This document shows, one piece after another, positions 31,030 to 61,077 of a stretch of 64,000 nt of DNA (positions are counted from its first letter, which is position 1; every line of letters begins with the position of its first letter). A model generated the notes under the pieces. That model searched no databases, was not told the DNA's origin, and worked only from the letters and a program-made list of their open reading frames with translations. Source of the DNA: Chloroflexota bacterium (GTDB lineage: Bacteria; Chloroflexota; Anaerolineae; UBA4142). The DNA lies in the NCBI GenBank assembly GCA_016215025.1, contig JACRMI010000009.1, forward strand, positions 1 to 64,000, given 5' to 3'. A program made the position numbers and the translations under genes.

Positions 31030-31692
31030 TTATTTCTTTTGGCTCGCGGCAAAAGACCCGTAGCGATTTTGATAGCGGTCGTAGTTCGCGGCGATCTCTT
31101 CGAACGGTAATTCTTCAATCTGTCCAATCTGCATCGCGAGCCAAACCGTCTTGGCAATATCCTCAACCATGACTGCGGCTTTCACCGCCTTTTGCACCGT
31201 CGCGCCAATCGTGAACACGCCATGTTGCTTCATCAAAATGGCAACCGACTTGCCGATTTTGCGCGTGACCTCTTCGCCGATTTCTTGGTCGCCGATGCGC
31301 ACATACCCCGCGCACGGAATCTCCGTCCCAAATTCATCCGCAATCGCCGTGAGGCAAACGGGAATCGATTTGCCCACCGCTGCGAATGCAGTCGCATAGT
31401 TGGAATGCGTGTGAACGATGCCATTCACGTCAGGACGATGTTTATAGATTGATAAATGCGACGCAGTATCCGTCGAAGGTCCCAGGGTCGCTTCGATCAC
31501 GTTGCCGTCCAAATCGACAATGGCCATATTCTCCGGCGTCAGTTCCCCGAACAAGACACCGCTGGGCTTGATGACGACAAGTCCGGTTGCTGGGTCGCGT
31601 CCGCTTACATTGCCGCTCGTCCACGTGACTAGATGATTGTCAGGCAATGCCATGTTCGCGCGCCAAACTTGTTTGCGCAATTGTTCAAGCAT
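31030..31692 (-). CDS. araD: L-ribulose-5-phosphate 4-epimerase
   Basis: A protein of 220 residues, class II aldolase fold. It interconverts L-ribulose 5-phosphate and D-xylulose 5-phosphate, the last step of the bacterial L-arabinose pathway. Zinc ligands are visible: H94 and H96 in IVHTHSNY and H157 in MKQHGVFTIG, with Asp75 at the position of the E. coli acid (GPSTDT). The phosphate loop SGNVSGRD is at 26-33. Its ATG overlaps the araB stop by one base (TGATG). It is the last gene of the locus. Confidence 0.92.
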   Translation of the reverse strand: MLEQLRKQVWRANMALPDNHLVTWTSGNVSGRDPATGLVVIKPSGVLFGELTPENMAIVDLDGNVIEATLGPSTDTASHLSIYKHRPDVNGIVHTHSNYATAFAAVGKSIPVCLTAIADEFGTEIPCAGYVRIGDQEIGEEVTRKIGKSVAILMKQHGVFTIGATVQKAVKAAVMVEDIAKTVWLAMQIGQIEELPFEEIAANYDRYQNRYGSFAASQKK

Positions 31693-33383
31693 CAGTCACC
31701 CCATGCCTGATGCAGTGCATCGGCTTTGATTTTTTTCAACGTCTTCATCACATTGTTCTCGCCGCGTCCAAAATAGTTATACAAACACAGGTATTCAGAG
31801 TATAATTGATCGTACACTTGTCGATTTGAGGCGATCGGTTTGAACGATTGTTTTTTCAGCCGCGCCATTTTTGGCGTCGCTTCAAAGATCGAATCGTAAC
31901 CGCCAGCCGCGCGCCCTGCCGCGACCGCGCCGTACATCGCCGCGCCAAGCGCCGGCGTCTGCGTCGAGCTGCTCACCTTGATTTCGCGCCCCGTCACATC
32001 GGCGTAAATTTGCATCAACAATTTGTTCTTCTCCGGTAGTCCACCGCAGGCGACGAGCTCATTCACCGCCACGCCATTCTTATCGAATGCTTCGACGATG
32101 ACACGCGTACCGAACGCCGTCGCTTCGATCAACGCGCGATAAATCTCCGGTGCTTTGGTCGCCAGTGTCGCGCCAACGAGCAAACCAGTCAAATCAACAT
32201 CGACCAGCGTCGAGCGATTGCCATTCCACCAATCGAGCGCAAGCAAACCCGATTCGCCCGGCTTTAATTTCGCCGCTTCGAGTTCCAGTGATTTGTGCAA
32301 ATCGATTTTGCGTTTCTTTGCCGCTGCATGATATTCCGGCGGGACTGCATGATCGACAAACCAAGCAAAGATGTCGCCGACGCCGGATTGTCCCGCTTCA
32401 TAGCCGAAATAACCGGGGATGATGCCGTCTTCGACATAGCCGCACATGCCTTCGATGATGCGTTCATTCGTGCCGACAACCATGTGGCAAATGCTCGTGC
32501 CCATCACCATCACCATGCGCCCCGCTTCGACGACAGTCGCCGCGGGAACCGATACATGCGCATCGACATTCGCGACGGCAACCGCAGTCCCAGGTTTCAA
32601 TCCAGTGAAATGCGCGGCGCGTGAAGTGATGCGCCCTGCTCGTCCCCCCAATGGCGCGATTCGCTGCGATAGTTTTTCTTGCACGACATTTGCCAAACGC
32701 GGATCGAGCGCAGCATAATAATCATTGGAAGGAAAACCGTCGCGTTTCGACCACAGCGCTTTGTAACCGGCGGTGCAAGCATTGCGAGTCTCTTCTCCGG
32801 TCAATTGCCACACCACCCAGTCCGCCGCTTCGATGAAACGATCGGCGGCGTTATAAATCTCTGGCGCTTCGTCGAGAATTTGCAGCGTCTTTGAAAAAAA
32901 CCATTCGGATGATATTTTGCCACCGTAGCGCGCAAGCCACTTTTCGCCCATCTGTCGCGCCGTTGCATTGATCTTGTCGGCTTCGGGTTGCGCCGCGTGA
33001 TGCTTCCACAGTTTCACCCAGGCGTGTGGATGGTGGCGATATTCAGGAATCACGCACAGCGGCGTGCCATCGGCTTTGACGGGCAGCATCGTACAGGCCG
33101 TAAAATCAATGCCGACCCCGATCACATCGGCAGGATCGATTTTGGTTTTCTTGAGCACGGCAGGAACCGTGGAGCGAAAAGTGCGAATGTAGTCTTCCGG
33201 GTCTTGGAGTGCCCAGTCCGGCTCTAATCGAATCTTGGTGCCCGGCAAGAATTCATCGATCACGCGATTCTTGTACGGATACACCGCCGTCGCGATTTCT
33301 TTGCCGTTGCTCACATCGACCAGCACTGCGCGGCCGGACTCTGTTCCAAAATCCACTCCAATGGTGTACTTGCGCTTACTCAT
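31692..33383 (-). CDS. araB: L-ribulokinase
   Basis: A protein of 563 residues, the usual length for AraB. It is a FGGY-family sugar kinase with the N-terminal phosphate-binding motif [17 protein letters not shown] and the FGGY-like C-terminal segment [21 protein letters not shown]. It phosphorylates L-ribulose, the product of the arabinose isomerase at 44160. GGGAGGATAAC precedes the ATG. It is separated from the permease genes by 194 bases holding a hairpin, so it may have its own promoter or be at the end of the long transcript. Confidence 0.92.
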
Positions 33384-33577: not shown

Positions 33578-34609
33578 TTAAGAATGTTTCTTTCGCATAT
33601 AGAACAGACTTTGAATGCCGATAAAAATCAGCGTGAGCACCCCAACGCCGATGCGCGTCCACCACGAACTCAGCGTGCCGTTGAATTGCAGAATCGACAC
33701 GATGGTTCCATGAATCAAGACACCGAAAAGCGTGCCGATCACATTGCCCACGCCACCGGTCAACAATGTGCCGCCCATGACGACGGAGGCAATGGCATCC
33801 AGTTCCATCCCCGTCGCAAATTGTCCATAGCCCGCGAGCAACGAGATGCTAAAGACGATTCCTGCCAAGGCAGAGCAAAGTCCGCTGAAGGAATAGACGA
33901 TGATTTTTGTGCGAGCGACCGGTAACCCCATCAGCAATGCCGATTGCTCGTTGTTGCCAATCGCATAGATGGTACGCCCAAAACGCGTAAAGTAGGTCAG
34001 ATAGAAAGCGATAATGAGCAACAGCGGCGCAACGAAGGTAGAAATATAAACATAGGCATCGACAAAAGGAATCGGAATCGAGGTTAGCGCTAGAAACTTG
34101 TAGAAACTGTCTTTGATGGAAACGGATTCCAGACTGATGATGTACGCCATGCCCCGTGCGAAAAAGAGTCCCATGAGCGTCGCAATAAAGGGCTGCACTT
34201 TGAGAAACTGAATGATGCAACCCATGACAAATCCAAACACGATGCCGATGACGATCATCAAAGGAATCACCACGAATGGACTGACGCCGCCTCTGAGCAT
34301 CGCCGCCGATGCGGCGCTCGTCAGCGCAATCACGCCGCCCACCGAAAGATCAATTCCGCCAGTGATAATCACCAGCGTCATGCCAATCGAAACCAGCAAT
34401 AGACTGGCGTCGTTGATAAACAGATTGAAAAACACCTGCGGCTGCTGCATGGCAGGATACATTTGCCCACCTATGAAATAAGCCAGGAGAAAAATCGAAA
34501 TGGTGGTCAACAGCGGTCCAAAACGCAGCAAGAAAAGTTTGATCCGCTGCGCCAGGTCGATCAGGAATGATTCGTCCCGCGATCGCACGGCTTTAGTTTG
34601 CTGTGCCAT
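33578..34609 (-). CDS. Sugar ABC permease (YjfF/RbsC family), second permease
   Basis: A membrane protein of 343 residues of the ribose/galactofuranose permease family. It has TLVIITGGIDLSVGGVIAL near 90-108 and the late loop ELDAIASVVMGGTLLTGGVGN near 262-282, both typical. It overlaps the first permease gene by 17 bases. Two different permeases with one ATPase is the YtfRT-YjfF arrangement used for furanose sugars, which fits L-arabinose (arabinofuranose) uptake. Confidence 0.9.
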   Translation of the reverse strand: MAQQTKAVRSRDESFLIDLAQRIKLFLLRFGPLLTTISIFLLAYFIGGQMYPAMQQPQVFFNLFINDASLLLVSIGMTLVIITGGIDLSVGGVIALTSAASAAMLRGGVSPFVVIPLMIVIGIVFGFVMGCIIQFLKVQPFIATLMGLFFARGMAYIISLESVSIKDSFYKFLALTSIPIPFVDAYVYISTFVAPLLLIIAFYLTYFTRFGRTIYAIGNNEQSALLMGLPVARTKIIVYSFSGLCSALAGIVFSISLLAGYGQFATGMELDAIASVVMGGTLLTGGVGNVIGTLFGVLIHGTIVSILQFNGTLSSWWTRIGVGVLTLIFIGIQSLFYMRKKHS

Positions 34610-35669
34610 GTTGCGAACCTCTCATCTCGGAGAATCGATTCAAGAATCGCCGAGTATAATCCGAATAAAGGAGAATCACGACCATGACCAGCACCGCCTT
34701 GGCAGCCAATAGCGCATTCGCTGGCACGCCCAGCGTGTACACGGTGAGCGTAAACGTCCAAATCACGACCGCCCCAATCACACTGGCAAGTAAAGAAAAC
34801 CTGCCACCTGTCATCATGGTTCCGCCCATGACTACCGCTAGGATAGCGTCCAATTCGTAATTGAGTCCATTGTTATTTCCATCAGCGCTGTGGACATAGG
34901 AGCTGAGAATCAATCCCGCGATGGCAGCGCAAAACCCACAAAAGGCATACGCGAACAGCTTGACGTTCTTTTCGTTGATGCCGCTATAGTACGACGATTT
35001 GGAATTGATGCCAACAGATTCGATGAACAAGCCGATAGACGTTTTGCGCACGAGCACCCAAGCCAAAAGAAAAACGACCGCCACGATGTAAACCGATACG
35101 GGCAGCCCCAGGATGTATCCGTTGCCAAACCAGAAATACGGCGTGTAGTAAATCGTCATGATTTGCCCATTCGTAATGAGTTGAGCAATGCCTCGTCCGG
35201 CTACCATCAGAATAAGCGTCGCCACCATTGGTTGGATCTTCGCGCGCGAAACAAGAAAGCCATTCCATAGACCACACGCCGTGCCCGCCGCAAGGTCAGC
35301 TAGGACGATAATCGGCAACGGCGTGTTCGTCGCATCCTTGGTGAGAATATCATTTGTGATGAGCACATTGCCCAACGCCGGATTGATCAACACCGCGCCC
35401 ATCGCCGCCGAAATCGCAATCACAGCGCCGACAGAAAGATCGATGCCGCCGGTGGCAATCACCAACGTCATGCCAAGCGCGACCAACATGAGCGGCGCGC
35501 CATTGTTGACGATGTCAATCAGGTTGCCGTACAAATGATCGCCTTGAATTTCGATCTTGAAGAAACTAGGAGCGTAGAAGGCATCGAAAATTAGAATCAA
35601 TACAAGCGCGCCGATAGGCAAAAACAAGGAGCTTTCGCGGATACGCGTGAGCCAAGGCGTGTTTTTCAT
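34593..35669 (-). CDS. Sugar ABC permease (YtfT/RbsC family), first permease
   Basis: A membrane protein of 358 residues with the family segments TLVIATGGIDLSVGAVIAI (about 64-82) and ELDAILAVVMGGTMMTGGRFS near 277-297. A polar insert, TNDILTKDATNTPLP, lies between early membrane segments. Its ATG overlaps the ATPase stop by four bases, so it is translationally coupled. It forms a heteromeric pore with the 33578 product. Confidence 0.9.
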   Translation of the reverse strand: MKNTPWLTRIRESSLFLPIGALVLILIFDAFYAPSFFKIEIQGDHLYGNLIDIVNNGAPLMLVALGMTLVIATGGIDLSVGAVIAISAAMGAVLINPALGNVLITNDILTKDATNTPLPIIVLADLAAGTACGLWNGFLVSRAKIQPMVATLILMVAGRGIAQLITNGQIMTIYYTPYFWFGNGYILGLPVSVYIVAVVFLLAWVLVRKTSIGLFIESVGINSKSSYYSGINEKNVKLFAYAFCGFCAAIAGLILSSYVHSADGNNNGLNYELDAILAVVMGGTMMTGGRFSLLASVIGAVVIWTFTLTVYTLGVPANALLAAKAVLVMVVILLYSDYTRRFLNRFSEMRGSQHGTAN

Positions 35670-37180
35670 AGGTTCCCTGCCATGGTACGAATAATCGTCT
35701 GATCGTCCACGTCGCCAGAATATTCGGCGGCTTTTTTGCGATCACGCAGCACGACGATGCGATTGCTGACACGGAGGACTTCTTCCAACTCAGAAGAGAT
35801 GAACAAGATCGAGATGCCCTCCTTCGCCAAGTCCAAAACCAATTTTTGGATTTCCGCTTTCGCGCCCACATCGATTCCGCGGGTCGGCTCGTCGAGAATC
35901 AAAACTTGAGGACTGGTTGCAAGCCAACGCGCGAGAATAACTTTTTGCTGATTACCGCCACTTAAATTCTTGACTAGTTGATCCGGCGATGGAGTAACGA
36001 TTCCTAACAGCTTGATAAATTTTTCCGCGATCTCATATTGTTTTTGCGACGAAATAAACTTGAACCAACCATAGCGCGCTTGCAATGCCAGGATGATATT
36101 TTCACGAATGGTTAAATCGCCCACCACGCCTTCGGCTTTGCGGTCTTCGGGGCACAATGCGATTCCACGTTTGAGAGATTCGGCCGGCGAAAAATCATTG
36201 ACCTTTTCGCCGTGAAATGCAAGCATGCCAGTGTCCGGTGTCTCGATACCAAAGATCAAGTCCGCCATCTCGGTTCGACCGGAACCAAGCAAACCGGCGA
36301 TGCCGACGACTTCATTCGCGTTCAAATCCAAATCAACCGGTTCTAGGAATCCTGCGCGCCCCAGATTTCTCGCTTCGACCAAGCTTTTTTTCTCACGCGC
36401 TTGCTCGCCCGTCGATTTGATTTTCGACATCGCATCCAAATCAGTTAGACTACGCCCCAACATTTTGGCAACCAACTCCACACGCGGCAGCGACGCCGTC
36501 TCGAACGTGCCGACGAGTTTGCCATTCCGCAGAACGGTGATGCGGTCGGCGACCTGATAAATCTGATCGAGAAAGTGGGTGATGAAAATAATTCCGATAC
36601 CTTCGCTCTTTAGTTTGCGCATGACGTCAAAGAGCAAATTGGTTTCGTGAATGTCGAGACTGGAGGTGGGTTCGTCGAGGATCAGGACTTCTGCAGCCGC
36701 AATTTCAAGCGCGCGGGTGATGGCGACCATTTGCTGAATCGCCACCGAAAAATTCCCCAGCGGTTGGGTTACATCGAGGTCGATCCCTAAGCGCTGGATA
36801 GCTTGGTAAGCCAAGTCGTTCATCTTTTTGTAATGAATACTGCCGAAACGATGCGGCTCGTGTCCCAGCATGATGTTTTCGGCGATGGAAATATTGGTGC
36901 ACAGATTCACTTCTTGATAAACGGTGCTAATGCCGAGTTCTTGGGAATGCTGGGGGGATCGGACTAGAATAGGTTTTCCATTCAGTTCGATAGAACCTTG
37001 GTCGGGCTGCTCTACGCCAGTGAGAACTTTGATGAGCGTGGATTTGCCCGCCCCGTTTTCGCCGACCAAGGCGTGGACTTCGCCTTTTCTCAAAGTAAAA
37101 TCAACGTCCTCAAGGGCGAGAACGCCAGGAAATGATTTGGTAATTCCCTTCATGCTCAAGAGCGGCTGAATATCTGCCAT
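35666..37180 (-). CDS. Sugar ABC ATPase with two nucleotide-binding domains (AraG/YtfR type)
   Basis: A protein of 504 residues containing two ATPase domains, as usual for sugar importers of the RbsA/AraG class. The first has a complete Walker A, GENGAGKST, and a degenerate signature, FSVAIQQMVAI. The second has the typical degenerate Walker A GLLGSGRTE and a good signature, LSGGNQQKVILARWLA, followed by LILDEPTRGIDVGAK. ATG at 37180 is preferred over a TTG two codons earlier. It follows the binding-protein gene at 37501 across 320 bases of repeats and drives uptake for the arabinose locus. Confidence 0.93.
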   Translation of the reverse strand: MADIQPLLSMKGITKSFPGVLALEDVDFTLRKGEVHALVGENGAGKSTLIKVLTGVEQPDQGSIELNGKPILVRSPQHSQELGISTVYQEVNLCTNISIAENIMLGHEPHRFGSIHYKKMNDLAYQAIQRLGIDLDVTQPLGNFSVAIQQMVAITRALEIAAAEVLILDEPTSSLDIHETNLLFDVMRKLKSEGIGIIFITHFLDQIYQVADRITVLRNGKLVGTFETASLPRVELVAKMLGRSLTDLDAMSKIKSTGEQAREKKSLVEARNLGRAGFLEPVDLDLNANEVVGIAGLLGSGRTEMADLIFGIETPDTGMLAFHGEKVNDFSPAESLKRGIALCPEDRKAEGVVGDLTIRENIILALQARYGWFKFISSQKQYEIAEKFIKLLGIVTPSPDQLVKNLSGGNQQKVILARWLATSPQVLILDEPTRGIDVGAKAEIQKLVLDLAKEGISILFISSELEEVLRVSNRIVVLRDRKKAAEYSGDVDDQTIIRTMAGNL

Positions 37181-37230
37181 AGACAAAATCCGCTTTCTTC
37201 GTTCAGAACTTTTGAATGATTACTCAGGAA

Positions 37231-37332
37231 TGTCACCCCGAGCGACACTTACACCTACGGTAACGCAAGTGCAGATGAGCGAAGGGGCTTGTTCTACGGA
37301 AAACGAGATGCTTCGCTTCGCTCAGGATGACG
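37231..37332. repeat. Dispersed repeat family A, variant copy
   Basis: Left end TGTCACCCCGAGCGA, right end GCTTCGCTTCGCTCAGGATGAC; the middle is divergent. With the family B unit at 37433-37488 it fills the 320-base gap between the binding protein and ATPase genes, where nothing else was seen. Confidence 0.65.
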
Positions 37333-37432
37333 GCTTGCGTTGGAATAGGAAGCGGCGTCAGCGCAACGCCGCTTCTACATCTCATTTTTTGTTGCGCGCT
37401 CCCCGGAAACAGGCGCGACAAGAAGACAAGTC

Positions 37433-37488
37433 TAGTCTAGCACCTCATGGGCGTTTAATCAAATTCACGCGCACAAGGAGCTAGACTA
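37433..37488. repeat. Palindromic repeat family B
   Basis: TAGTCTAGC at the left and GCTAGACTA at the right, with partly matching CACCT/AGG and GGGCG/CGCGC internal parts, bound 56 bases. It lies just downstream of the binding-protein stop and closely resembles 43043-43103. Confidence 0.7.
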
Positions 37489-37500
37489 TTTCAACCTATT

Positions 37501-38526
37501 CTAGTACTTGCGAGTCGGAAGCAAGTCCTTGGCTTTGTCGGGATAGTATACGGTTTCATTGGTCAGAACTTCGCGGTCGATGGTTTGACCGTTCATGAGT
37601 TTAAGCGCCATTTCAAAGACCTGGGGACCAAGCAACGGATTGCATTCGACATCGGCTTGGAACCAGCCGTCGACCATCGCTTGGAAACCGCCACGCGTAC
37701 CATCGACGGATACAATCTTGAGATCGCCGGGTTTGACGCCAGCGGCTTTCAACGCTTCGATCGCGCCGATACCCATGTCGTCATTGTGAATGAAGATGCC
37801 CTGGAAATCTGTACCCGCTTTGTACTTTTTCAAGAAAGCTTGCATGACGGGAACGGCTTCTGCGCGGGTAAAGTTGCCAGTTTGCGAATCGAGAATCTTG
37901 ATATTGGCGTTGATTTTGTTTCGGAAACCCTTGGCTCGACCAACCGCCGCGCCAGAACCGGTCGTGCCGGACAATTCGAGAACAGCGCCGCCATTCGGCA
38001 TCATCTTGTTGAATTCAGCCGCGGCCCGTTCGCCTTCCAACACCATGTCGGAACCGATGTGAGAGGCATACAAGGATTTGTCAGCGCTCACGCTGCGATC
38101 GACGACGATAACCGGAATCTTTGCATTCTTAGCTTCGTTGAGAACAGCATCCCAACCATCTTCCACGACGGGAGGCAATGCGATCACATCGACTTTTTGC
38201 TGAATGCAAGCGCGCACAGCCGAGATTTGATTTTCCTGCTTTTGCTGCGCGTCGGAGAACACCAATTGCTTGATGCCTAACGTTTGCGCGGTTTCTTTGA
38301 ACGATGCAGTGTTCGCCGTGCGCCAGTCACTTTCCGCACCGAGTTGTGGGTAGCACAACGTCATATCTTTGTAGGTTTTGGCAGCCGCTTGCGATGCTGC
38401 ACTTGAGGCGGGTGCGGCGCTAGAAGCGGCTGGTGGTTGCGCCGCAGGTGTGGCAGAAGCGCAGCCGACGATAGCGATGAGGGCAACGACTAACACGAAG
38501 AACAACAGGGCCTTTGAGAACTTCAT
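37501..38526 (-). CDS. Sugar ABC binding lipoprotein (transport partner; AraE/YtfQ-like)
   Basis: A protein of 341 residues with lipobox AIVGC (Cys22), an Ala/Ser/Pro linker and a ribose-type binding fold. The segment GAESDWRTANTASFKETAQ and the C-terminal half ECNPLLGPQVFEMALKLMNG are shared with the YtfQ group and with the paralog at 38785. It has its own ribosome binding site (AGGAGGAG) and lies just before the ATPase and permeases, so it is the likely transport partner. The ligand is probably L-arabinose, given the araBAD genes. Confidence 0.88.
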   Translation of the reverse strand: MKFSKALLFFVLVVALIAIVGCASATPAAQPPAASSAAPASSAASQAAAKTYKDMTLCYPQLGAESDWRTANTASFKETAQTLGIKQLVFSDAQQKQENQISAVRACIQQKVDVIALPPVVEDGWDAVLNEAKNAKIPVIVVDRSVSADKSLYASHIGSDMVLEGERAAAEFNKMMPNGGAVLELSGTTGSGAAVGRAKGFRNKINANIKILDSQTGNFTRAEAVPVMQAFLKKYKAGTDFQGIFIHNDDMGIGAIEALKAAGVKPGDLKIVSVDGTRGGFQAMVDGWFQADVECNPLLGPQVFEMALKLMNGQTIDREVLTNETVYYPDKAKDLLPTRKY

Positions 38527-38784
38527 TGTACTCCTCCTTTTCAGTTCTCTGCTTGATTTCGTTACGTCAGATTTGGATGGATATTTCCCCGGGTAGAAAC
38601 AACCATCCTTGCCCTCAGCTTACATCGCAACTCATCCGATAGGAATGCTTTCTTTTGGGAATCTAGTTCGATATTCGATGGTGTTCGCCTTTATCGTACA
38701 CGATTTATGGAAAAAAGGTGCAATTTTTTTTGAAAGAGGTTGAATAACTTTCGACTGTAGCGCGAGCGGCTCGCGGTACAGCAA
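38527..38784 (-). other. Gap between the two binding-protein genes
   Basis: On the minus strand the upstream lipoprotein gene is followed by a hairpin at 38755-38781 (CTGTA + CGCGAGC paired with GCTCGCG + TACAG). After that comes an A/T-rich part with TTGCAC and TACGAT (near 38722-38690, 19-base spacing), a weak candidate promoter for the transporter operon. If the YesN-type regulator has a target in the locus, this gap is the natural place. Confidence 0.4.
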
Positions 38785-39798
38785 TCAATATTTCCGCGTC
38801 GGTAGAATTTGCGCCGCATTGTCCGGATAGAAAATCGATTCCTTGGACGGAATCCACTTTGGAATCGTTTCACCGTTGACGACCTTGAGCGCCATTTCCA
38901 AAAATTCGGGACCGAGCAACGGATTACACTCCACCGTCGCGTTGAGTTTGCCGGCGATCATCGCTTCAAACGCGCCGCGCGCTGCATCGATCGAAACGAT
39001 CTTGATGTCGATGCCAGGTCGCAAGCCATAGTCCTCAATCGCCTTGATCGCGCCGAGCGCCATGTCGTCGTTGTGAGCGAAAACCGCCGTGATGGTCTTG
39101 CCATGCTTTTTCAAAAAGCTCGCCATCACTTCTTTGCCTTTGGCGATGGTAAATTCGCCTTCCTGGGAATCGATGATCTTCATGTCGGGATAGCTCTGCA
39201 AAATTTCTCGAAAGCCGACATAGCGATCATTCGCAGGCGCTGATCCTTTCGTTCCCTGCAACTCGACGATGTTCGCTTTGCCGTTGGTCAGCTTGGCCAT
39301 GATGCGCCCGGCGTTGCGACCTTCATCGACAAAATCAGAACCCATTAGTGTCACGTACAGGTCTTCAGGCACGGCTGCGCGCCGGTCCACGACGATGATC
39401 GGAATGCCCGCGTCTCTCGCTTCTTGAAAGACGGCAACCCAGCCTGTCTCAACAATCGGCGCAACGCCAATCACATCGACCTTTTGCGCGATGAGCGACC
39501 GAATCGCCTTGATTTGATTTTCCTGTTTTTGCTGCGCATCAGAAAAACGCAATTCAACGCCGAGTTGGGCCGCCGCTTCCTTGACCGAGTTGGTGTTCGC
39601 CGTACGCCATTCGCTCTCCGCGCCGAGTTGAACGTATCCGACGATCAAATCCTTGTACGTCTTTTTCGTTTTGACATTCGGCGTTGCCGACTCTTGTGTA
39701 ACTGGTAATGTGGCGGGCGCTGGATTGCAGCCAATCAAGCTCGAGAGCAAAACTAGAATCACTAGAGGAATAAATCGCGATGTCATCATTGTCATCAT
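38785..39798 (-). CDS. Binding lipoprotein linked to the kinase (AraP-like)
   Basis: A protein of 337 residues with signal peptide and lipobox SSLIGC, and a ribose-type binding fold closely similar to the 37501 product over its length (GAESEWRTANTNSVKEA; FSDAQQKQENQIKAIRSLI; ECNPLLGPEFLEMALKVVNG). The ATG at 39798 starts 7 bases after the kinase stop, so it is coupled to the kinase rather than to the transporter. In Geobacillus, AraP is a sugar-binding lipoprotein that signals through AraS/AraT. The position here suggests the same role. A longer frame upstream overlaps the kinase and is not needed. Confidence 0.85.
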   Translation of the reverse strand: MMTMMTSRFIPLVILVLLSSLIGCNPAPATLPVTQESATPNVKTKKTYKDLIVGYVQLGAESEWRTANTNSVKEAAAQLGVELRFSDAQQKQENQIKAIRSLIAQKVDVIGVAPIVETGWVAVFQEARDAGIPIIVVDRRAAVPEDLYVTLMGSDFVDEGRNAGRIMAKLTNGKANIVELQGTKGSAPANDRYVGFREILQSYPDMKIIDSQEGEFTIAKGKEVMASFLKKHGKTITAVFAHNDDMALGAIKAIEDYGLRPGIDIKIVSIDAARGAFEAMIAGKLNATVECNPLLGPEFLEMALKVVNGETIPKWIPSKESIFYPDNAAQILPTRKY

Positions 39799-39805
39799 TC
39801 GATGC

Positions 39806-41425
39806 TCACACCAGTTGCTCAGCCGGTTGACTGGGACTAGATCCAAAGCTCGGTCGCTCGGCGGCGGCGTCTCGAATCGCTGGGATGGTGAGCGTCACGC
39901 GCGTGCCGACGTTGTATTCACTCATCACGGCAAGTCCAGATTGTTTGCCATAGTACAACCGGATTCGCTTTTTGACGTTACCGACACCAAATCCACTTTC
40001 AAGTTTAATATCGCCCGAATCATCTTCCAACTCGGCTTTGAGTTGAGCCAGTTTATCCGGCGTGAATCCGATTCCATCGTCTTCAACTTCGATCAGAATT
40101 TCCTGGTCATTCTTTTGTCGCGCGCGCACGACAATCGTGCCGCCCGTGCGCTTGTTCTTGATGCCGTGATACAGTGCATTTTCGACCAAGGGCTGCAAGA
40201 CCAACTTGAGAATCGTGTACCGCAAAACGGATTCATCGACCTCGATTTTGAAATCCATGATGTCACGATAACGCATGCGTTGAATCGTCAAATAGTTTTT
40301 GACCCGCTCGATCTCTTCGCCGATGGTGATCCAGTCCCGGCCCTTGCTGAGACTGATGCGAAAGAAACTCGACAACGCGCTGACAATCTCGACCACTTGA
40401 TCCGTCTTTTGCGACTCTGCCATCCAGATGATCGTGTCCAGCGTGTTGTACAAAAAATGTGGATTGATCTGGGCTTGGAGCGCGCGGAGTTCTGCTTTTT
40501 GTAGATTTTCCTGCTCTTTGATTTTCGCGTCGAGCAGCTCGCGAATTTTGCCGATCATGATGTTAAAGCTCATCCCTAGCTCGGTAATTTCATCGACGTT
40601 GTCGCGATTCACCAACGCTTGCAAATCGTTTTTGGTGATGGTCGTCGTGACATCGTGCAGGCGCTTGATCGGAATGTAAATACTTTGCGAGATTGCCCAT
40701 GCGGCGATAATGGAGAATGCGATAGCGCCAACCCATAGCAACAGATAGAAAGCTTCCCACTGCGCAAAACCCTGGCTGGTGATGCGGTATTGCTGATCAG
40801 CTTGATTCACTTCAAACAGCACATAGTCTTGCACGACCTCTTCCACTACCGATGAAACGCCGCGAATGTTTTCCAGCACCGCTTCGTTTTCGGCGACCGT
40901 GCTGCCGCGTGCAATTTGCTCGCCCATCAGATCGACATAGCGCGTCAAGGTTTTCATCGTCCGGCTGATAACTTCCAGTTTGAGTTTCGATCCAGCCGAC
41001 ACAGCGTGGTCCGTCATCCATTGCAATTTGCTGTTCACGTTGTTAATGATGTCGTACTGTTTACCTTCGACGAATTGGGTCTTGCCCGCCACAATGTTCC
41101 ACATCTCGGTATCGACGTCAGTCTTGATGTGACCGTTGATACTGTTCGCCGTCGTGATGTTGTTCATCATTGCATCGTACTGGCGGCTATAGTTCGTTAT
41201 CTGGAACATCAATACTACATTGGTCAAGCCCATTAACAAAATGACGATGCCGAGCGAAAGCAGAATCTTCGTGCGGATCGACAGATTCAAGCCTGCCAAA
41301 AAATGCGCGATGCGCCCCATCGAGCGGTGCCAAGTTTGACGCGGGACATTCGTACCCCAGTCCACTTTCGCCAAGTAATCCCTAAAATCAGTAGCAATCG
41401 TTTTCCGAATCATGGTGTGGCTCAC
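39806..41425 (-). CDS. YesM/LytS-type sensor histidine kinase (AraS-like)
   Basis: A protein of 539 residues. One membrane segment lies near 52-74 and another near 225-250, flanking an extracytoplasmic sensor region. A HAMP domain follows, then the His_kinase domain with the phospho-acceptor in INPHFLYNTLD (about residue 323), then HATPase with DDGIGF and ESGFGVGNVKKRI. The start is GTG at 41425, overlapping the regulator stop by four bases; ATG at 41413 is possible. The adjacent sugar-binding lipoprotein probably supplies the signal. Confidence 0.92.
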   Translation of the reverse strand: MSHTMIRKTIATDFRDYLAKVDWGTNVPRQTWHRSMGRIAHFLAGLNLSIRTKILLSLGIVILLMGLTNVVLMFQITNYSRQYDAMMNNITTANSINGHIKTDVDTEMWNIVAGKTQFVEGKQYDIINNVNSKLQWMTDHAVSAGSKLKLEVISRTMKTLTRYVDLMGEQIARGSTVAENEAVLENIRGVSSVVEEVVQDYVLFEVNQADQQYRITSQGFAQWEAFYLLLWVGAIAFSIIAAWAISQSIYIPIKRLHDVTTTITKNDLQALVNRDNVDEITELGMSFNIMIGKIRELLDAKIKEQENLQKAELRALQAQINPHFLYNTLDTIIWMAESQKTDQVVEIVSALSSFFRISLSKGRDWITIGEEIERVKNYLTIQRMRYRDIMDFKIEVDESVLRYTILKLVLQPLVENALYHGIKNKRTGGTIVVRARQKNDQEILIEVEDDGIGFTPDKLAQLKAELEDDSGDIKLESGFGVGNVKKRIRLYYGKQSGLAVMSEYNVGTRVTLTIPAIRDAAAERPSFGSSPSQPAEQLV

Positions 41426-42999
41426 TGCGCCTGCAATCGAAATTCGCGGGGCGATAGTCCCGTGGCTTTTCGAAAGACATGGCTAAAGTAATGCGGATCG
41501 TTGTAGCCAATTTTGTACGAGATTTCCGACGAGCGGTGCGCCGTGGTGCGTAATAATTCTTTCGCTTTGCGGATCCTGATCTCGGTCACGTATTCTTTGA
41601 ACGTCGTGCCACATTCTTGGCTAAAGACCGCGCTGAAATGACTGGGACTAAGATTGACTTGATTCGCCACTTGGTTGAGCGATAATTCAGGATCGAGAAA
41701 ATGCTGGGCAATGTACTCTTTGGCGCGCTGAATCATACCCGCGTATTGATTCGTCGTCTGACTATCGCGAAAAGCCAACGCGCCCATCAGGATTTCTTGC
41801 ACTTGAAATCGAATCTGTTCAATCGTCCGAATATTCGCCAACACGGAGCCAATCGCACTGAAATTCGGAATGACTTGATCGATATTGCCGCCGAGTCCGT
41901 TAACAAATTTTGCCACCGCGACCATCAAGTCGATGAAGATGTAATTTTTGAGCATCGAAGACCGACAAGCCGTTTCACCTATGCGGCGAATGTACGTATC
42001 GAAGAAACGAGCAAAGTCTTCTCTGGCTCCAAACATGAGATAGTGTTCCACCGCCGATTGATCGATTTTGAGCAGCTCGATACCGTCGATGCGAGCATCC
42101 GTCACGGTTGCCGGTTGAGTCGCCGTATTCTTGACGTTCACCATCGCTTCGATAAACGATTGGTAAATATCGGCGATTCGTTTCTTGAGCGTGCCTGACG
42201 CGATGACAAGTTTTGAATTACCGCCGTGTATTGCTTGCTCGATTCGCTTGAGCAGCAGCTCGTTTTCTTCAAGCAAAAATTCGGGCGTGTTGCCTTTCAG
42301 GATAAGCACGAGTTCTTCGGGGTCTTTTTCAAGCAAGAACACATCGGGGTTGTGTTCCACCAAACTCTCAGTCGTCTGGCGCACTTGATGGCATTCTGGA
42401 TAGTTGAACGATGCCAAAGCCTCCGCCCGTTCGATCCGGATGACCGTGACTTGATAGAATCGAGCGACGAGATCAATGTTCAACGCTTGGCTCTGTTCGA
42501 TGGCTTCGGTCGATGGCAGTTCGCCTAGCACGAGTTTAAGCAGGAATTTTTCCTTGAGTGTGGTTTGATACTCTTGCACTTGGGCTTGCAACTTGCGGAC
42601 ACTTTCTTGCTCTCTGCGTTCCGTATCGATTTGTACGGCAATGCGTTGCAGGACATTGTGGAAATCTTGGACCGTGATCGGTTTCAATAGATATTCGGTC
42701 ACGCCGAGTTTGATCGCCTTTTGTGCGTAATCGAACTCGTCGTGTCCACTGAAAATGATGATCTTGACCCAGGACATTCGTTCACGAATGATTTTGCACA
42801 ACTGCAAGCCATCCATAAACGGCATCTTGATGTCTGTAATCAAAACATCGGGGCGCAGCGATTGGATGAGCGGCAGAGCCATTTCGCCATCGGACGCTTC
42901 GCCGCAGAACTCAAAACCATGCCGCTGCCAATCGACATTGTCTCGAATTCCCTCGCGGGTGACGATTTCATCCTCAACGAAAAAAACTTTGTACGGCAT
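41422..42999 (-). CDS. YesN-type response regulator, AraC DNA-binding domain (AraT-like)
   Basis: A protein of 525 residues. The receiver domain has phospho-acceptor Asp56 in VLITDIKMPFMDG and Lys near 106. A long middle region with a coiled coil follows, then an AraC-type double helix-turn-helix at the C-terminus (NQVNLSPSHFSAVFSQ and IGYNDPHYFSHVFRKATG). ATG at 42999 has AAGGAGTGG upstream and begins the receiver correctly. It probably activates the arabinose transport genes, by analogy with AraT. Confidence 0.93.
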   Translation of the reverse strand: MPYKVFFVEDEIVTREGIRDNVDWQRHGFEFCGEASDGEMALPLIQSLRPDVLITDIKMPFMDGLQLCKIIRERMSWVKIIIFSGHDEFDYAQKAIKLGVTEYLLKPITVQDFHNVLQRIAVQIDTERREQESVRKLQAQVQEYQTTLKEKFLLKLVLGELPSTEAIEQSQALNIDLVARFYQVTVIRIERAEALASFNYPECHQVRQTTESLVEHNPDVFLLEKDPEELVLILKGNTPEFLLEENELLLKRIEQAIHGGNSKLVIASGTLKKRIADIYQSFIEAMVNVKNTATQPATVTDARIDGIELLKIDQSAVEHYLMFGAREDFARFFDTYIRRIGETACRSSMLKNYIFIDLMVAVAKFVNGLGGNIDQVIPNFSAIGSVLANIRTIEQIRFQVQEILMGALAFRDSQTTNQYAGMIQRAKEYIAQHFLDPELSLNQVANQVNLSPSHFSAVFSQECGTTFKEYVTEIRIRKAKELLRTTAHRSSEISYKIGYNDPHYFSHVFRKATGLSPREFRLQAQ

Positions 43000-43113: not shown

Positions 43114-44097
43114 TCACCAATAATGATGCACCTGCTCGCGAATGCGTCGATCATAAATCGCGCGCACCTGCTGCATCGTCGAATCGGAGATGGGCGGCAA
43201 ATCCGCGGCGCGCGAGTTATCTTCGACCTGGCTTGGACGTTTCGCGCCCGGAATTGCGCACGTCACGGCGTCGAACATCAGAATCCAACGCAGTGAAAAT
43301 TCCGCCATCGTCCAGCCCGCCGGCAAGAGTGGGCGTAATTCTTCGACCGTTTGCAACCCCAGGTCATAGTCTACACCTGAAAACGTTTCGCCGCGATCAA
43401 ACGATTCGCCGTGTCGATTGAATGCGCGGTGATCATCTGTCGAGAATGTACTAGTGCGCGTCATCTTCCCAGCAAGCATACCCGACGAAAGCGGCAAGCG
43501 CGCGAGGATACCTACGCGTCTGCGTTTGGCTTGATCGAAAAACAACTCTGCCGGTCGTTGCCGAAAAATATTGAAAATAATTTGCACCGATTGCACACCG
43601 GGATATTCAATCGCCTTGAGCGCTTCTTCCACTTTTTCAACGCTGACGCCATAGTGGCGCAGTTTGCCTTGCTTGACAAGATCATCCAGCACGCCGAAAA
43701 CTTCCGGCATATAATAGACAGCCGTCGGCGGACAGTGTAATTGCACTAAATCCAACGTGTCGGTCTCTAGATTCTTGAGACTGCGCTCAATAAACGCCGT
43801 GAGGTTCTCGCGATTGTATCCGCTGGCGCTGTGTGGGCTGAGTCGGCGACCTGCTTTGGTGACGATGTGAATTTCTTCGCGGCGTTCGCGCTTGAGTTGC
43901 GCCAACAAACGTTCGCTGTGTCCATCGCCATAGACGTCCGCCGTATCGAAAAAATTTACGCCGAGGTCTACGGCGCGCCGAAGCGCATCAAGCGATTCGC
44001 GATCATCCACACTGCCCCACGAACTACCAATCGCCCATGCGCCAAAACTAATCGTCGAAACGCGCCAACCTGTTCGTCCTAGTTCGCGATAATTCAT
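43114..44097 (-). CDS. Aldo/keto reductase
   Basis: A protein of 327 residues with the catalytic tetrad visible: Asp51 and Tyr56 in FFDTADVYG, Lys81 in VTKAG and His121 in VQLHCPP. Members reduce aldehydes or sugars, or oxidise sugars, with NADP(H). ATG at 44097 is supported by GAAAGGG; the 14 codons of open frame before it consist of a short GACTATCC repeat. Its place between araA and the regulators suggests action on arabinose-derived aldehydes or a side route, but nothing in the sequence names the substrate. Confidence 0.88.
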   Translation of the reverse strand: MNYRELGRTGWRVSTISFGAWAIGSSWGSVDDRESLDALRRAVDLGVNFFDTADVYGDGHSERLLAQLKRERREEIHIVTKAGRRLSPHSASGYNRENLTAFIERSLKNLETDTLDLVQLHCPPTAVYYMPEVFGVLDDLVKQGKLRHYGVSVEKVEEALKAIEYPGVQSVQIIFNIFRQRPAELFFDQAKRRRVGILARLPLSSGMLAGKMTRTSTFSTDDHRAFNRHGESFDRGETFSGVDYDLGLQTVEELRPLLPAGWTMAEFSLRWILMFDAVTCAIPGAKRPSQVEDNSRAADLPPISDSTMQQVRAIYDRRIREQVHHYW

Positions 44098-44123
44098 AGA
44101 AACCCTTTCAGTCAAATAGTCGG

Positions 44124-44163
44124 ATAGTCGGATAGTCAATACGAGAGTTGACTATCCGACTAT
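44124..44163. repeat. Perfect inverted repeat at the araA stop
   Basis: ATAGTCGGATAGTCAA (44124-44139) and TTGACTATCCGACTAT (44148-44163) form a 16-pair stem with an 8-base loop. The right arm includes the araA stop codon. Further GACTA units lie on both sides. No T run follows on the minus strand, so it is an intercistronic hairpin or weak terminator. Confidence 0.8.
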
Positions 44164-45662
44164 GCGACTAGACGACTATAGACTAGATCATTCCAACGCA
44201 ATTCATTTTTGAATTGCACCAAATCCGTGTTTTCGCCAATCAACAAAAATTCAATGTTGCACATTTCGGCAAAGTCGCGCAGATGCGCTGATGTGATGGC
44301 TTGGCTAAACGCCGTATGATGCGCGCCGCCCGCATAAATCCAGGCAGCGAGTGCGGTCTTGAAATTCGGCTTGGGTAACCAAACGGCACGCGCCACAGGC
44401 AATTGAGGCAACGCTGCATCGGGCTGCACCACCTCAACTTCATTCACGATCAAACGAAAGCGATTACCCATATCGATCATCGATGCGTTGAGCGCGGGAC
44501 CCGTGCGCGTGTTGAAGATCAGACGCACTGGGTCGGCTTTGCCGCCGATGGAGAGCGGATAAAGTTCCGCAGACGGTTTGCCATCGGCGATAGTTGCGGC
44601 AACCTCGAGCATGTGCGCGCCCAAAACCTTTTCGCCCATTGGGTCCATGTGATACGTATAGTCTTCCATGAACGACGCGCCACCGGGCAGACCTGCGCCT
44701 ATCACATAGACCGCACGCAGCAACGCAGCCGTTTTCCAATCGCCTTCTGCACCGAAACCATAGCCGTCCGCCATCAATCGCTGAACGGCGATGCCGGGCA
44801 ATTGCTTTAACCCTGGCAAATCCTCGAACGTGTCGGTGAATCCTTTGAATTGTCCCGCATCGAGAAAATGGCGCAAACCTAGTTCGATACGCGCCGCATC
44901 ACGCAACGATTCGCGATACTTGCCGCGCGCACGCAACAATTCGGCGACGTGATACTGCGTTTCGTACTCATCGACAAGATGATCGACCTCGGACTCGGCG
45001 ACTTGATTGACCGATTCGACCAAGTCGTGGACGCCGTACCCATTCACGGCATAACCGAATTGGATTTGCGCGGCGACTTTATCGCCTTCGGTCACGGCGA
45101 CCTGGCGCATGTTGTCGCCAAAGCGCGCGAACTTGGCGCACTGCCAATCGAGTCGCGCCGATGCTGCGCGCGTCCACACGCCGATCTCTTGCTGAACCTC
45201 GTCGGTCTGCCAATGCCCAACGACCACTTTACGATTCAAACGCATTCGACTTGCGGCGAAACCAAACTCACGGTCGCCATGCGCCGATTGATTGAGATTC
45301 ATAAAGTTCATATCAATCGTCGCCCAGGGAATATCGCGATTGAACTGCGTGTGCAGATGCAGGAACGGTTTTTGCAGCGCAACCAGTCCGTTGAGCCACA
45401 TCTTGGCAGGCGAAAAAGTATGCATCCACGTAATCAAGCCGATGCAATTCTTGGCACAATTCGCTTCGAGACAAATATCGTAGATGGCTTCGGGCGTTGT
45501 GACCACCGGTTTGAAAACGACTTGGACTGGAATGTGCGGCGAATCGTTGAACGCGCGCGCGATTTGTTGCACGTGTTCGGCGACTTGAACCAACACCTCA
45601 TTCCCATATAAATGCTGACTGCCCGTCACGAACCATACCTCAAACGTCCTAAGGTCTACCAT
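44160..45662 (-). CDS. araA: L-arabinose isomerase
   Basis: A protein of 500 residues, exactly the common AraA length. It converts L-arabinose to L-ribulose. Family segments include [10 protein letters not shown] at the start, [26 protein letters not shown] near residue 306 with one of the metal-binding glutamates, and [10 protein letters not shown] near 331 with the other. ATG at 45662 follows GGAGGAATTAAC. It is the first enzyme gene downstream of the LacI-family regulator, after a strong hairpin. Confidence 0.95.
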
Positions 45663-45695
45663 GTTAATTCCTCCAAAGAATAATGAGAGATAGCA

Positions 45696-45741
45696 AAAGC
45701 CCTTTTGCCGCACTGCAAAATGCACTGGGCAAAAGGGCTTT
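45696..45741 (-). other. Strong hairpin in the araA leader
   Basis: AAAGCCCTTTTGCC and GGCAAAAGGGCTTT form a perfect 14-pair stem with an 18-base loop between the regulator stop (45808) and araA. On the minus strand the stem ends in CTTTT, then GCTATC, so it could be a weak terminator for the regulator gene or a leader structure that tunes araA expression. Confidence 0.65.
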
Positions 45742-45807: not shown

Positions 45808-46884
45808 CTAAGGTGTGGCACTCTGTTTTTCCAATGATTCACTCACCGCGCGCGAACTCTGACGAATCACCAGTTCCGGCGCAAGCGAGGTCGTGGTTGG
45901 CTCGCTGTCTTGTTCGTTTCGCTGCATCTCAATTAATCGATGCAACGTCTGGACTGCCGTGCGTCCTAGTTCGACAACATGTTGGTTGACGGTTGTCAGC
46001 GAAGGCCAGAAATACGCCGATTCGGGAATATCATCAAAACCGACGATGGCAATGTCTTGAGGCACGCACCGTCCCATCGAGTGAATCACACCCAATGCAC
46101 CCAATGCCATTTGATCGTTTCCGGCAAATACAGCATCCATCTCTGGAGCTTGAGCGAGCAATTTCCTCATCCCCTCTTCGCCGCTGCGAGCCGACCAATC
46201 GCCTTCGGAAATTAGACCTGGGTTGACCGCTAACCCTGCTTCAAGACACGTCGCTTTCCATCCTTCGAATCGTTCGCGCGATTCCCACCAATGCATGGGA
46301 CCATTAATGATGCCGATCGTCCGTCGATTTTGTTGGATGAGGTGTTGGGTCGCTTTAACCGCGCCCAATCGATTATCCGCAGCAATGATCGACAAACCGG
46401 GGCGCGCTGCCATGCTAAGGAAAACCGTCGGCGGCAATTGCGCTAACCAATCCGATTTCACCCACGTGCGATTATTGCCAACTTCGGGGACTGCCCAAAC
46501 GATGCCGTCAACCCGGCGCGCGGTCAACGCATCGAGGATTGGACGGACATCGGTACGGTCCGGCTCTGGAATTAAATTGAGCAATAACGAATAACCTAAC
46601 TCTGCCGCCTGTTGTTCAACACCCAAGACAGCGCGTGAAGGTCCGAAGTAATCGATACCCCACGCCACAACCGCTAAGGTATCCGTCCGCCGATTGACCA
46701 GACTACGAGCAAGTATATTCGGTCGATAGCCGGACTGTTCAATCGCAGCTTGGATGCGTTGGCGGGTTGACGCGCTGATCTCGCCTTGATTGTTCACAAC
46801 CCGTGAGACGGTTTTGATCGATACGCCAGAGAGCTTGGCGACATCACGGAGGGTTACATGATTGGGGGAATTTGATTTTGACAT
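45808..46884 (-). CDS. LacI-family transcription regulator of the arabinose locus
   Basis: A protein of 358 residues. The N-terminal LacI helix-turn-helix (TLRDVAKLSGVSIKTVSRVV, residues about 10-29) with hinge YRPNILARSL is followed by a ribose-binding-type effector domain containing IVGFDDIPESAYFWPSLTTV. It is upstream of araA on the same strand and overlooks a promoter and repeated ACGTT motifs. It should repress its own gene and araA until the sugar binds. The effector is presumed to be arabinose or a derivative from context only. Confidence 0.92.
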   Translation of the reverse strand: MSKSNSPNHVTLRDVAKLSGVSIKTVSRVVNNQGEISASTRQRIQAAIEQSGYRPNILARSLVNRRTDTLAVVAWGIDYFGPSRAVLGVEQQAAELGYSLLLNLIPEPDRTDVRPILDALTARRVDGIVWAVPEVGNNRTWVKSDWLAQLPPTVFLSMAARPGLSIIAADNRLGAVKATQHLIQQNRRTIGIINGPMHWWESRERFEGWKATCLEAGLAVNPGLISEGDWSARSGEEGMRKLLAQAPEMDAVFAGNDQMALGALGVIHSMGRCVPQDIAIVGFDDIPESAYFWPSLTTVNQHVVELGRTAVQTLHRLIEMQRNEQDSEPTTTSLAPELVIRQSSRAVSESLEKQSATP

Positions 46885-51341: not shown

Positions 51342-52436
51342 TTAATAACGAAGAATCTGTGGAAGGTCTGGAATCGCCACCGTCTCTTTTTCCAGCTCGA
51401 TTATGCCACTGACAAAATGTTTTTCGATCACTGGGCTAGATTGGCATGGCTTGTACGCTACCGGCAAACGGAGTGCGCGAATAGTTGGGCGAATGACCAA
51501 GCCTGCATACACATCCGTTTTCGATTCGCCGGATGAGCGCACGATCAACAACCGCGACCGCTCATTGCGCCAACCTTCAGCCGAACGCAAACCCAACCGC
51601 GCATTTAGGTCGATAACCGGCACAAGTCGATTGCGCCAATTGATCAGACCCAACACGAACGACGGTGCGCCGGGCACGCGCGTCAGTTGCGCCGTGTTTA
51701 AGATTTCAGGAACTTGGGTAATGCTGAGCGCAAAGGACAACGCGCGTTCGCCCGGCACGGGATCGCTGGTCGAAAAGAGAAGAATCTGTTTATCGCGACG
51801 CGCTTTTTTCTTGGTGTCCGAAAATACCGGCGGTGCGGAGGGAACATGATTCTTGAAATCCGTCGCTGGTCGAAGAGCAGCGTTAGGCGATTGACGCGCG
51901 CGCGGTGCCGCATCGGGATGCACCAGCTCAGGCGCGAGCAGTAAAACCAGTTCCTCTTCCAAGCGAATGGCTCCACGAAAATAATTCGACGAGGAGCAGT
52001 TGACCAGCGCGGGCAAGGGGACAAGCTGCTCGCTCGAAATTTCGACAACCTGCGAAACGCGGTCCACCAACAATGCCCACGGACGATTTGAAATTATGAT
52101 TACGGGATTCAGAACAACGACGCGCCCGTAACTTGCAAGAGTTGTTGTCGTGCGACCCAAGCGGCTGGCGAGACTATAGACTGGGATGTCGCCGTCTTCC
52201 GCTGGCAGCCAACCGATCCTGTTGCGCGCTTCGTCGAAGAAACCTGTTCTCTCGTCTGCTTCCACGTCGTTCTTTGACTTGTCCGCCAAGAAACGGGGCT
52301 TTAGTTCAGCGACGGGCTTGATTTGGTCGGCACGTTGGATACTTCGCACCCAGCTCATATCCAATCCATAGGATTCTTCGCCAATGTTACAGCGGATGAA
52401 GCGTAATTTTCGCATCGCGGTTATTTCGTTCGCCAT
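51342..52436 (-). CDS. CheW-like protein with two CheW domains
   Basis: A protein of 364 residues. The first domain (about 8-175) contains PWALLVDRVSQVVEISSEQLVPLP. After a polar linker (about 180-220), the second domain (about 220-360) contains VLGLINWRNRLVPVIDLNARLGL and ends IPDLPQILRY. CheW domains link receptors to CheA. The first domain has an insert of about 30 residues (ADKSKNDVEADERTG and beyond) before its GDIPVYSLASRL strand. It is the last gene of the chemosensory run, 290 bases after cheB across repeats. ATG at 52436 has GAGAG upstream. Confidence 0.85.
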   Translation of the reverse strand: MANEITAMRKLRFIRCNIGEESYGLDMSWVRSIQRADQIKPVAELKPRFLADKSKNDVEADERTGFFDEARNRIGWLPAEDGDIPVYSLASRLGRTTTTLASYGRVVVLNPVIIISNRPWALLVDRVSQVVEISSEQLVPLPALVNCSSSNYFRGAIRLEEELVLLLAPELVHPDAAPRARQSPNAALRPATDFKNHVPSAPPVFSDTKKKARRDKQILLFSTSDPVPGERALSFALSITQVPEILNTAQLTRVPGAPSFVLGLINWRNRLVPVIDLNARLGLRSAEGWRNERSRLLIVRSSGESKTDVYAGLVIRPTIRALRLPVAYKPCQSSPVIEKHFVSGIIELEKETVAIPDLPQILRY

Positions 52437-52464
52437 AATTATCTCTCGCAACCATCCAGCCCAA

Positions 52465-52593
52465 TGTCATTGCGAGCGGAGCGTCGGACGAACTGCGTCC
52501 GCGCAATCTCCAACCAAGCCGGACGCGTCGCGGCTTCGTCGCTTCGGTGCTCATTGATTGCGACACTTGTTTACGTTGGAACTTACAATGACA
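52465..52593. repeat. Dispersed repeat family A, diverged copy
   Basis: Starts TGTCATTGCGAGCG and ends TACAATGACA, with an inner CGTCGGACGAACTGCGTCCG hairpin and GCGTCGCGGCTTCGTCGC. The core differs from most copies. It lies upstream of the CheW-like gene. Confidence 0.6.
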
Positions 52594-52638
52594 GTCTGGG
52601 TAATAATTTAGGACTTTCGCTTCAAGCGAGTTTTTGCC

Positions 52639-52708
52639 TGTCACCCTGAGCGAAGCGAAGGGTCTAGCTCTGCAAAAAACGAGATGCTTCGCTCCGCTCA
52701 GCATGACA
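52639..52708. repeat. Dispersed repeat family A, short copy
   Basis: TGTCACCCTGAGCGAAGCGAAG at the left and CTTCGCTCCGCTCAGCATGACA at the right, 70 bases, nearly identical to the copy at 13510-13576. It lies just after the cheB stop. Confidence 0.85.
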
Positions 52709-52724
52709 AGCGCAAGTCCTATGA

Positions 52725-56755: not shown

Positions 56756-56781
56756 ACGATTATCTCCGGTAGCATGGACGG

Positions 56782-61068: not shown

Positions 61069-61077
61069 GGTGAACAG

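Follow-up and report, generated by a model that had tools for sequence, protein, structure and literature searches.

A probable three-component sugar-sensing system with GafA-type binding proteins and a LytS-like kinase in an arabinose locus of Chloroflexota

The 64,000-nt stretch of DNA analyzed here (positions 1 to 64,000 of contig JACRMI010000009.1, referred to in its entirety as the window) comes from a bacterium of the phylum Chloroflexota and probably encodes a sugar-sensing three-component system, located on the minus strand among genes for the use of L-arabinose. The four genes central to the system are designated T (regulator), S (kinase), P (sensor-side substrate-binding protein, SBP) and E (transport-side SBP).

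41422-42999, minus strand: T, a YesN-type response regulator of 525 aa (Response_reg, E-value 7.9e-25; AraC-type HTH_18, 1.5e-22).
39806-41425, minus strand: S, a YesM-type sensor histidine kinase of 539 aa with a GTG start (HAMP; His_kinase, 3.1e-28; HATPase_c).
38785-39798, minus strand: P, a predicted GafA-type sugar-binding lipoprotein of 337 aa and the proposed sensor SBP (Peripla_BP_4; lipobox LIGC24).
37501-38526, minus strand: E, a predicted GafA-type sugar-binding lipoprotein of 341 aa and the proposed transport SBP (lipobox IVGC22).

In the proposed mechanism, the GafA-family lipoprotein P would be anchored outside the membrane and would bind the furanose form of L-arabinose, and possibly D-galactofuranose. 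The closed, sugar-bound form of P would dock on helices 3 and 4 of a four-helix ectodomain of S, S would phosphorylate T, and T would bind as a tandem pair to a 21-bp direct repeat upstream of E and activate a GafABCD-type importer (E, YtfR, YtfT, and YjfF), probably together with araB and araD. P would be dedicated to sensing and E to transport, two roles that one protein appears to combine in related genomes. The linkage of the genes and its conservation, the protein families, the clades of the binding proteins and an operator footprint restricted to kinase-bearing loci can all be observed directly, and for sequence data they make a strong case that P, S, and T function together and control the importer.

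The gene order on the minus strand is LacI, araA, aldo-keto reductase, T, S, P, a gap of 258 nt, E, ATPase, permease 1, permease 2, araB, and araD. The original prediction, made from the letters of the window, had described a YesN-type regulator, a YesM-type kinase and a binding lipoprotein as linked, and the spacing it gave is confirmed to the base, with T and S overlapping by 4 nt (GTGA, 41422-41425) and S and P separated by 7 nt (39799-39805). An alternative upstream start of T at 43032 is possible. Catalytic residues are present in both S and T, with H323 of S within QINPHFLYNTLD and the phospho-acceptor of T at D56 within LITDIKMP. The paralog of the binding protein said to precede the ABC genes is E, which is 51% identical to P, with the family's binding-site motifs common to both, and the acylated cysteine of P and E is invariant across all aligned relatives. 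The genes of an SBP, a kinase and a regulator are linked beside the cognate importer, the arrangement by which three-component sugar systems are recognized.

The conservation of this cassette was surveyed in 396 genomes of Anaerolineae, the class within Chloroflexota to which the host, correctly predicted as Chloroflexota-like, belongs. With S counted at an E-value of 1e-60 or lower, the kinase was found in 19 of the genomes, and in all 19 it is adjoined by a P-type SBP with 57-80% identity to P; other genomes of the class with SBPs of the P family contain more distant ones and lack S. In the class relatives, T-S-P is followed by E or by a second P-like SBP and then by the same type of transporter. 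A profile of the S ectodomain identified eight further genomes elsewhere in the phylum, with loci that read T-S-P-E-transporter or, in G666, T-S-P-transporter. The carriers of the cassette include a cultured type strain, Herpetosiphon aurantiacus 114-95T (G493; PMC3368417). A single SBP, 200-300 nt behind S, lies between S and the transporter in loci L071, L076, L077, L103, and L192. The cassette is widespread but patchy in Chloroflexota, and because the same order beside the same transporter recurs in many other genomes, the T-S-P linkage is not due to chance. In five Bacillota loci (L104, L105, L107, L149, and L120), a Gaf-type transporter is accompanied by a YesM/YesN pair and by one or two additional diverged SBPs. 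Upstream of HAMP their kinases do not match S, and Gaf importers may have acquired such sensors independently.

Mapping of the regulator site upstream of position 38526, as the original prediction had suggested, revealed a direct repeat in the gap between P and E, and a possible second pair closer to the promoter.

38718-38755, minus strand: proposed operator of T, a direct repeat (GTCGAAAGTTATTCAAC / TTCAAAAAAAATTGCAC) of 38 bp with 21 bp from start to start, 191-229 nt upstream of E.
38645-38682, minus strand: tentative second repeat pair (ACCATCGAATATCGAAC / TTCCCAAAAGAAAGCAT), nearer the promoter, with a first half-site of 4.6 bits and partial conservation in the alignment.

The conserved footprint in the P-E gap reads ATCnAAAAATATTCAAC-n4-ATCnAAAAAAATTnCAC. 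A position weight matrix (PWM) built without the window (leave-one-out) gives 40.1 bits at 38718-38755 on the minus strand, compared with 14.3 bits for the next best site in the 64 kb, and in 13 further genomes the best PWM site likewise falls in this gap. A 21-bp period runs through the matrix (z about 5), which is the spacing to be expected when an AraC-type protein binds in tandem. The repeat occurs in one copy at ≤3 mismatches in the 7.74-Mb genome. In each arrangement the operator stands ahead of the gene that opens the transport operon, which is in keeping with T acting at this point and probably at no other in the locus. The best site lies in the expected gap in 28 of 30 kinase-bearing loci, with weak scores of 8-15 bits in the Herpetosiphon-type loci, whereas an operator upstream of the SBP was found in none of the 18 kinase-less loci (Fisher 3e-11, for rows that are not independent). 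In single-SBP and Chloroflexia loci the operator directly follows S, and P heads the transport operon there. A candidate operator confined to kinase-bearing loci is what would be seen if T acts at the importer promoter. Scans for sigma-70 promoters and terminators returned no more than shuffled sequences did. Separately, a palindrome, CATTTC..CCCGGG..GAAATG, is present between promoter and E, 56-77 nt upstream of E, in several kinase-bearing loci (L060-L067); it is weak in the window (about 38585-38602) and absent from the kinase-less E loci L078-L081, and it may be an operator or an RNA hairpin.

A second candidate regulator is encoded at the upstream end of the locus.

45808-46884, minus strand: LacI-family repressor, directly upstream of araA.

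This protein could be the true regulator that answers to arabinose across the entire locus, with T-S-P contributing only minor tuning, as is suggested by its gene preceding araA in the window and by the LacI-family gene that many kinase-less relatives (L078, L079, and L081 among them) have upstream of the same transport operon. However, what is conserved ahead of E in genomes with the kinase is the T-type operator and not a LacI-type palindrome, and the T-type operator is missing where only LacI is present, which makes such a minor role for T-S-P distinctly unlikely. LacI and T may also act in parallel.

The relationship between the two binding proteins was examined in trees, one of them of 83 SBPs (L069 and L070 break off close to P, and L070 carries no label in the second tree). 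The 19 P proteins encoded behind S in two-SBP Anaerolineae fall into a single clade (support 96/86; 94% of bootstrap trees). The E clade is separate from it and also holds the SBPs of the kinase-less operons L078-L081. The transport SBP of families f37 and G324 resembles P but lies outside the sensor clade. Single SBPs occupy several positions among the kinase-linked SBPs, and the Chloroflexia P group with the single SBP of G666. A recent duplication giving P and E is ruled out by the trees, which place them in different, old clades, and the description of the binding protein as duplicated was in this sense misleading. The simplest reading is that an ancestor with one SBP in a dual role would have given rise to the two-SBP state more than once, the number of origins being unsure because the backbone of the tree has open forks. 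As one SBP appears to do both jobs in related genomes, the split between sensing and transport would be derived. The alignment of the two lipoproteins for residues facing the kinase, which the original prediction had recommended, did yield a candidate in F124 of P: each of the 23 kinase-linked Chloroflexota P proteins compared has Phe here, whereas almost every transport-only GafA protein has Leu, as does E (L129). As a signature of kinase contact the residue was set aside and is kept only as a lead, because Phe also occurs in a single transport copy (L068) and in four Bacillota proteins. Phe at this position may be an ancestral state that was lost twice.

P could alternatively be a second SBP that feeds the same importer with another affinity or for another form of the sugar, with S sensing something else or binding a sugar directly through its four-helix domain. 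Such an arrangement would agree with P and E both being GafA-type lipoproteins with the same pocket residues, with their joint position downstream of the operator, within the transport operon, in Chloroflexia, and with the ability of four-helix bundles to bind small ligands directly (6its is among the structural matches). It would not account for the lack of P wherever S is absent, for the P genes of Anaerolineae lying, together with T and S, ahead of the operator and for their products grouping in one clade, or for single-SBP relatives keeping S beside that SBP, and we consider it unlikely. The conserved linkage, the clades and the operator instead support the logic originally proposed, a three-component system in which sensing and transport are divided between two SBPs.

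To dock with P, S would use the domain between its membrane helices.

40718-41230, minus strand: ectodomain of S with the ends of both transmembrane helices (S residues 66-236), a modelled four-helix bundle.

The ectodomain of about 150 residues is conserved across classes of the phylum. Its mean pairwise identity among relatives is 56%, compared with 66% for the kinase core, a high value for a sensor domain. No Pfam family was found for the ectodomain, and a sequence search of the PDB with its profile gave nothing relevant. The ectodomain was folded alone, the full-length model of S being uninformative for this domain in the fold search, and the resulting model is a four-helix bundle with a mean predicted local distance difference test score of 88. 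In a Foldseek search of the PDB the best match to the model was 4k0d, and LytSN (5xsj_L) was third best, with a template modelling score of 0.84 by target, 2.4 Å over 121 columns, a probability of 1.00 and an E-value of 0.016, among many other four-helix matches. In the XylFII-LytSN complex XylFII binds helices H3 and H4 of LytS (PMC9769921), and the conserved S stretches KLEVISRTMKTL..MG.QI and ENIRGVS..VQDYVLFEV are located in the model helices corresponding to H3 and H4. Because four-helix bundles are common, the LytSN match indicates compatibility and not contact. A kinase without a matching extracytoplasmic surface would have told against the original prediction, and S is instead modelled with an ectodomain whose fold is known to bind an SBP.

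Downstream of E are the remaining genes of the importer, araB and araD; araA and the aldo-keto reductase gene lie upstream of T.

35666-37186, minus strand: GafB/YtfR-type CUT2 ATPase (best model NF041861 YtfR, 683 bits, cut-off 850; AraG 506).
34593-35669, minus strand: YtfT-type permease (NF041862, 325.6 bits, cut-off 535).
33578-34609, minus strand: YjfF-type permease (NF008630, 355.5 bits, cut-off 363).
31692-33383, minus strand: araB, L-ribulokinase (TIGR01234, 770 bits, above cut-off).
31030-31692, minus strand: araD-like class II aldolase/epimerase (Aldolase_II, 2.4e-52).
43114-44139, minus strand: aldo-keto reductase, named from sequence, between araA and T.
44160-45725, minus strand: araA, L-arabinose isomerase (NF002795, 800 bits, above cut-off).

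Since araA and araB score above NCBI's curated cut-offs, this is an L-arabinose locus with a complete araBAD set, as its predicted arabinose context implied. The best NCBIfam matches of the four importer parts are the YtfQ, YtfR, YtfT, and YjfF models, each below its equivalog cut-off and thus valid at the family level only; P reaches 335 bits with the YtfQ model and 61 bits with the XylF-type TIGR02634, against a cut-off of 390. The importer is assigned on these matches to the two-permease GafABCD (YtfQRT-YjfF) type, and P and E are both assigned to the GafA type. Among solved structures, those nearest to P and E are GafA proteins (6hyh/6hbd/6hb0, 5ocp, and 2vk2). The binding-site residues are identical among solved GafA proteins, 5ocp being the L-arabinofuranose-specific GafA of Shewanella sp. 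ANA-3 (PMC10191376). In the alignment, P keeps the pocket residues E61, W64, and D138, and E keeps E65, W68, and D143; Glu28 and Asp105 of the mycobacterial GafA align to E61 and D138 in P and to E65 and D143 in E. The Phe at the bottom of the GafA pocket, which supports the sugar, is Tyr in both proteins (Y55 in P and Y59 in E). Phe40 is thought to confer arabinose selectivity on the Shewanella GafA, and the mycobacterial GafA binds both arabinofuranose and galactofuranose (PMC10191376). P and E both have Asn at the Phe40 position, as does the mycobacterial protein. Because their pocket residues are alike, including this Asn, P and E should both bind the same sugars, which argues against the divergence in sugar specificity that would have told against the original prediction. 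Given the surrounding genes, the ligand should be arabinofuranose in the first place, with galactofuranose possible. A system that senses and imports mainly D-galactofuranose would be in keeping with the Asn shared with the dual-sugar protein and with the YtfQ (galactofuranose) model being the best NCBIfam match of P and E, but its embedding in araBAD, together with the ara genes likewise found in many relatives, makes a preference for galactofuranose over arabinose an unlikely one as well.

The locus had originally been matched to AraPST plus AraEGH, which are described for Geobacillus (PMC4194401, PMC4428132, PMC13068155) and assign sensing and uptake to different SBPs (PMC10384115). The present locus shares with them a set of three linked genes next to a CUT2 arabinose transporter and araBAD, with separate SBPs for sensing and transport. 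Our comparison was with AraPST-like Bacillales loci obtained from a ChvE-type SBP search and not with G. stearothermophilus T-6 itself; some of these loci have araA, araB, and araD, and relatives of the aldo-keto reductase adjoin some of them. Their kinases have a dCache ectodomain (dCache_1, 6.5e-25), whereas S has no dCache domain and a modelled four-helix bundle, and the two kinases are similar (42%) only from the HAMP region on (S residue 226). Their transport SBP is of the ChvE type and comes with one permease, in contrast to the GafA-type E with its YtfT and YjfF permeases; E and the ChvE-type AraE-like protein are 20% identical over 142 aa. The AraPST-like sensor SBP compared is 27% identical to P and has a different best NCBIfam family, such sensor SBPs have an N-terminal hydrophobic anchor, and the gene order is P-S-T in the Bacillales and T-S-P here. 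The match does not hold, and although the roles are the same and an SBP, a YesM kinase and a YesN regulator are likewise linked to a CUT2 transporter and ara genes, the differences in sensor SBP, kinase ectodomain, transport SBP, permease number and gene order make a true AraPST/AraEGH ortholog very improbable.

Other systems share further parts of the design. XylFII-LytS-YesN of Clostridium beijerinckii (5xsj) also has a Peripla_BP_4 SBP dedicated to sensing, a separate transport SBP, a YesN-type regulator and a YesM/LytS-type kinase with a four-helix ectodomain (here modelled), but the sensor SBP here is GafA-type and not XylF-type, the ectodomains are 9% identical, and the present locus is an arabinose locus of Chloroflexota. 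The GafABCD/YtfQRT-YjfF importers of E. coli, Shewanella sp. ANA-3, and Mycobacterium (MSMEG_1712) resemble the present one in the SBP, the ATPase, the two different permeases and the GafA pocket residues, whereas in the present system a signalling role is proposed for a GafA-type protein; no report of such importers with a three-component sensor was found in the literature. GanPST of Geobacillus stearothermophilus, a galactan system, contains the closest solved kinase core to S (GanS, 6swj/6swk, 33% identity) and has another SBP. CuaDSR with CuaABC of Ruminiclostridium cellulolyticum likewise has a second SBP adjacent to a two-component system, and its sensor SBP binds the kinase ectodomain while its transport SBP does not (PMC10384115); it differs in being a cellobiose system with a family 1 SBP and a larger alpha/beta ectodomain. 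By its logic the system described here would work like AraPST and XylFII-LytS, and by membership it is neither: the proposed three-component arabinose switch, from GafA-type SBPs and a kinase modelled with a LytS-like four-helix ectodomain, follows a known plan with different parts.

Several observations weigh against the proposed sensing system. Four-helix bundles match many structures, and the E-value of the LytSN match to the modelled ectodomain is 0.016. Loci L102 and L189 carry the cassette and show no operator site in the expected place, and as the kinase-bearing loci are related, the counts overstate their independence. A mirror-tree comparison gave a weak signal, with partial correlations of 0.30 for the ectodomain with P and -0.10 for the ectodomain with E, which is the expected direction, for 11 genomes, too few to weigh.

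Further features were noted in the window and in L065. The E-ATPase gap (37187-37500) contains a repeat-like insert (GTGACATT...GAGCGAAGCGAAGCATCTC...), and L065 has a hairpin-like insert in its P-E gap (9275-9653 of that locus), immediately before the operator; the two inserts resemble small mobile elements within the operon. On the plus strand, an SBP_bac_1 gene (4093-5463) is followed after 30 nt by a diguanylate cyclase gene with Cache-like, HAMP, GAF, and GGDEF domains (5494-8523), possibly a second SBP-coupled sensor in the window, with cyclic-di-GMP output. A chemotaxis cluster on the minus strand (51342-62106) encodes CheW-like proteins, CheB, a CheA with Hpt and receiver domains, and a methyl-accepting chemotaxis protein with dCache domains.

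The route by which import proteins turn into signalling proteins is mostly inferred from isolated pairs. In the present case one kinase family stands beside a lone SBP, beside two that are similar, or beside two that are old and diverged, and a conserved operator marks the controlled genes, so that the split between sensing and transport is directly testable, partly in the cultured Herpetosiphon aurantiacus. We tentatively propose, at slightly less than an even chance, that the system is a furanose-tuned three-component sensor, which would report L-arabinofuranose released from arabinan or arabinoxylan before it turns to the pyranose, and that a dual-role SBP gave rise to its sensing SBP on more than one occasion, with the single-SBP, tandem-P and P plus E stages all still alive. 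With the system as described, the GafA family of furanose-binding proteins would join the SBPs known to signal, and Chloroflexota would have a defined, probably single-site arabinose switch.

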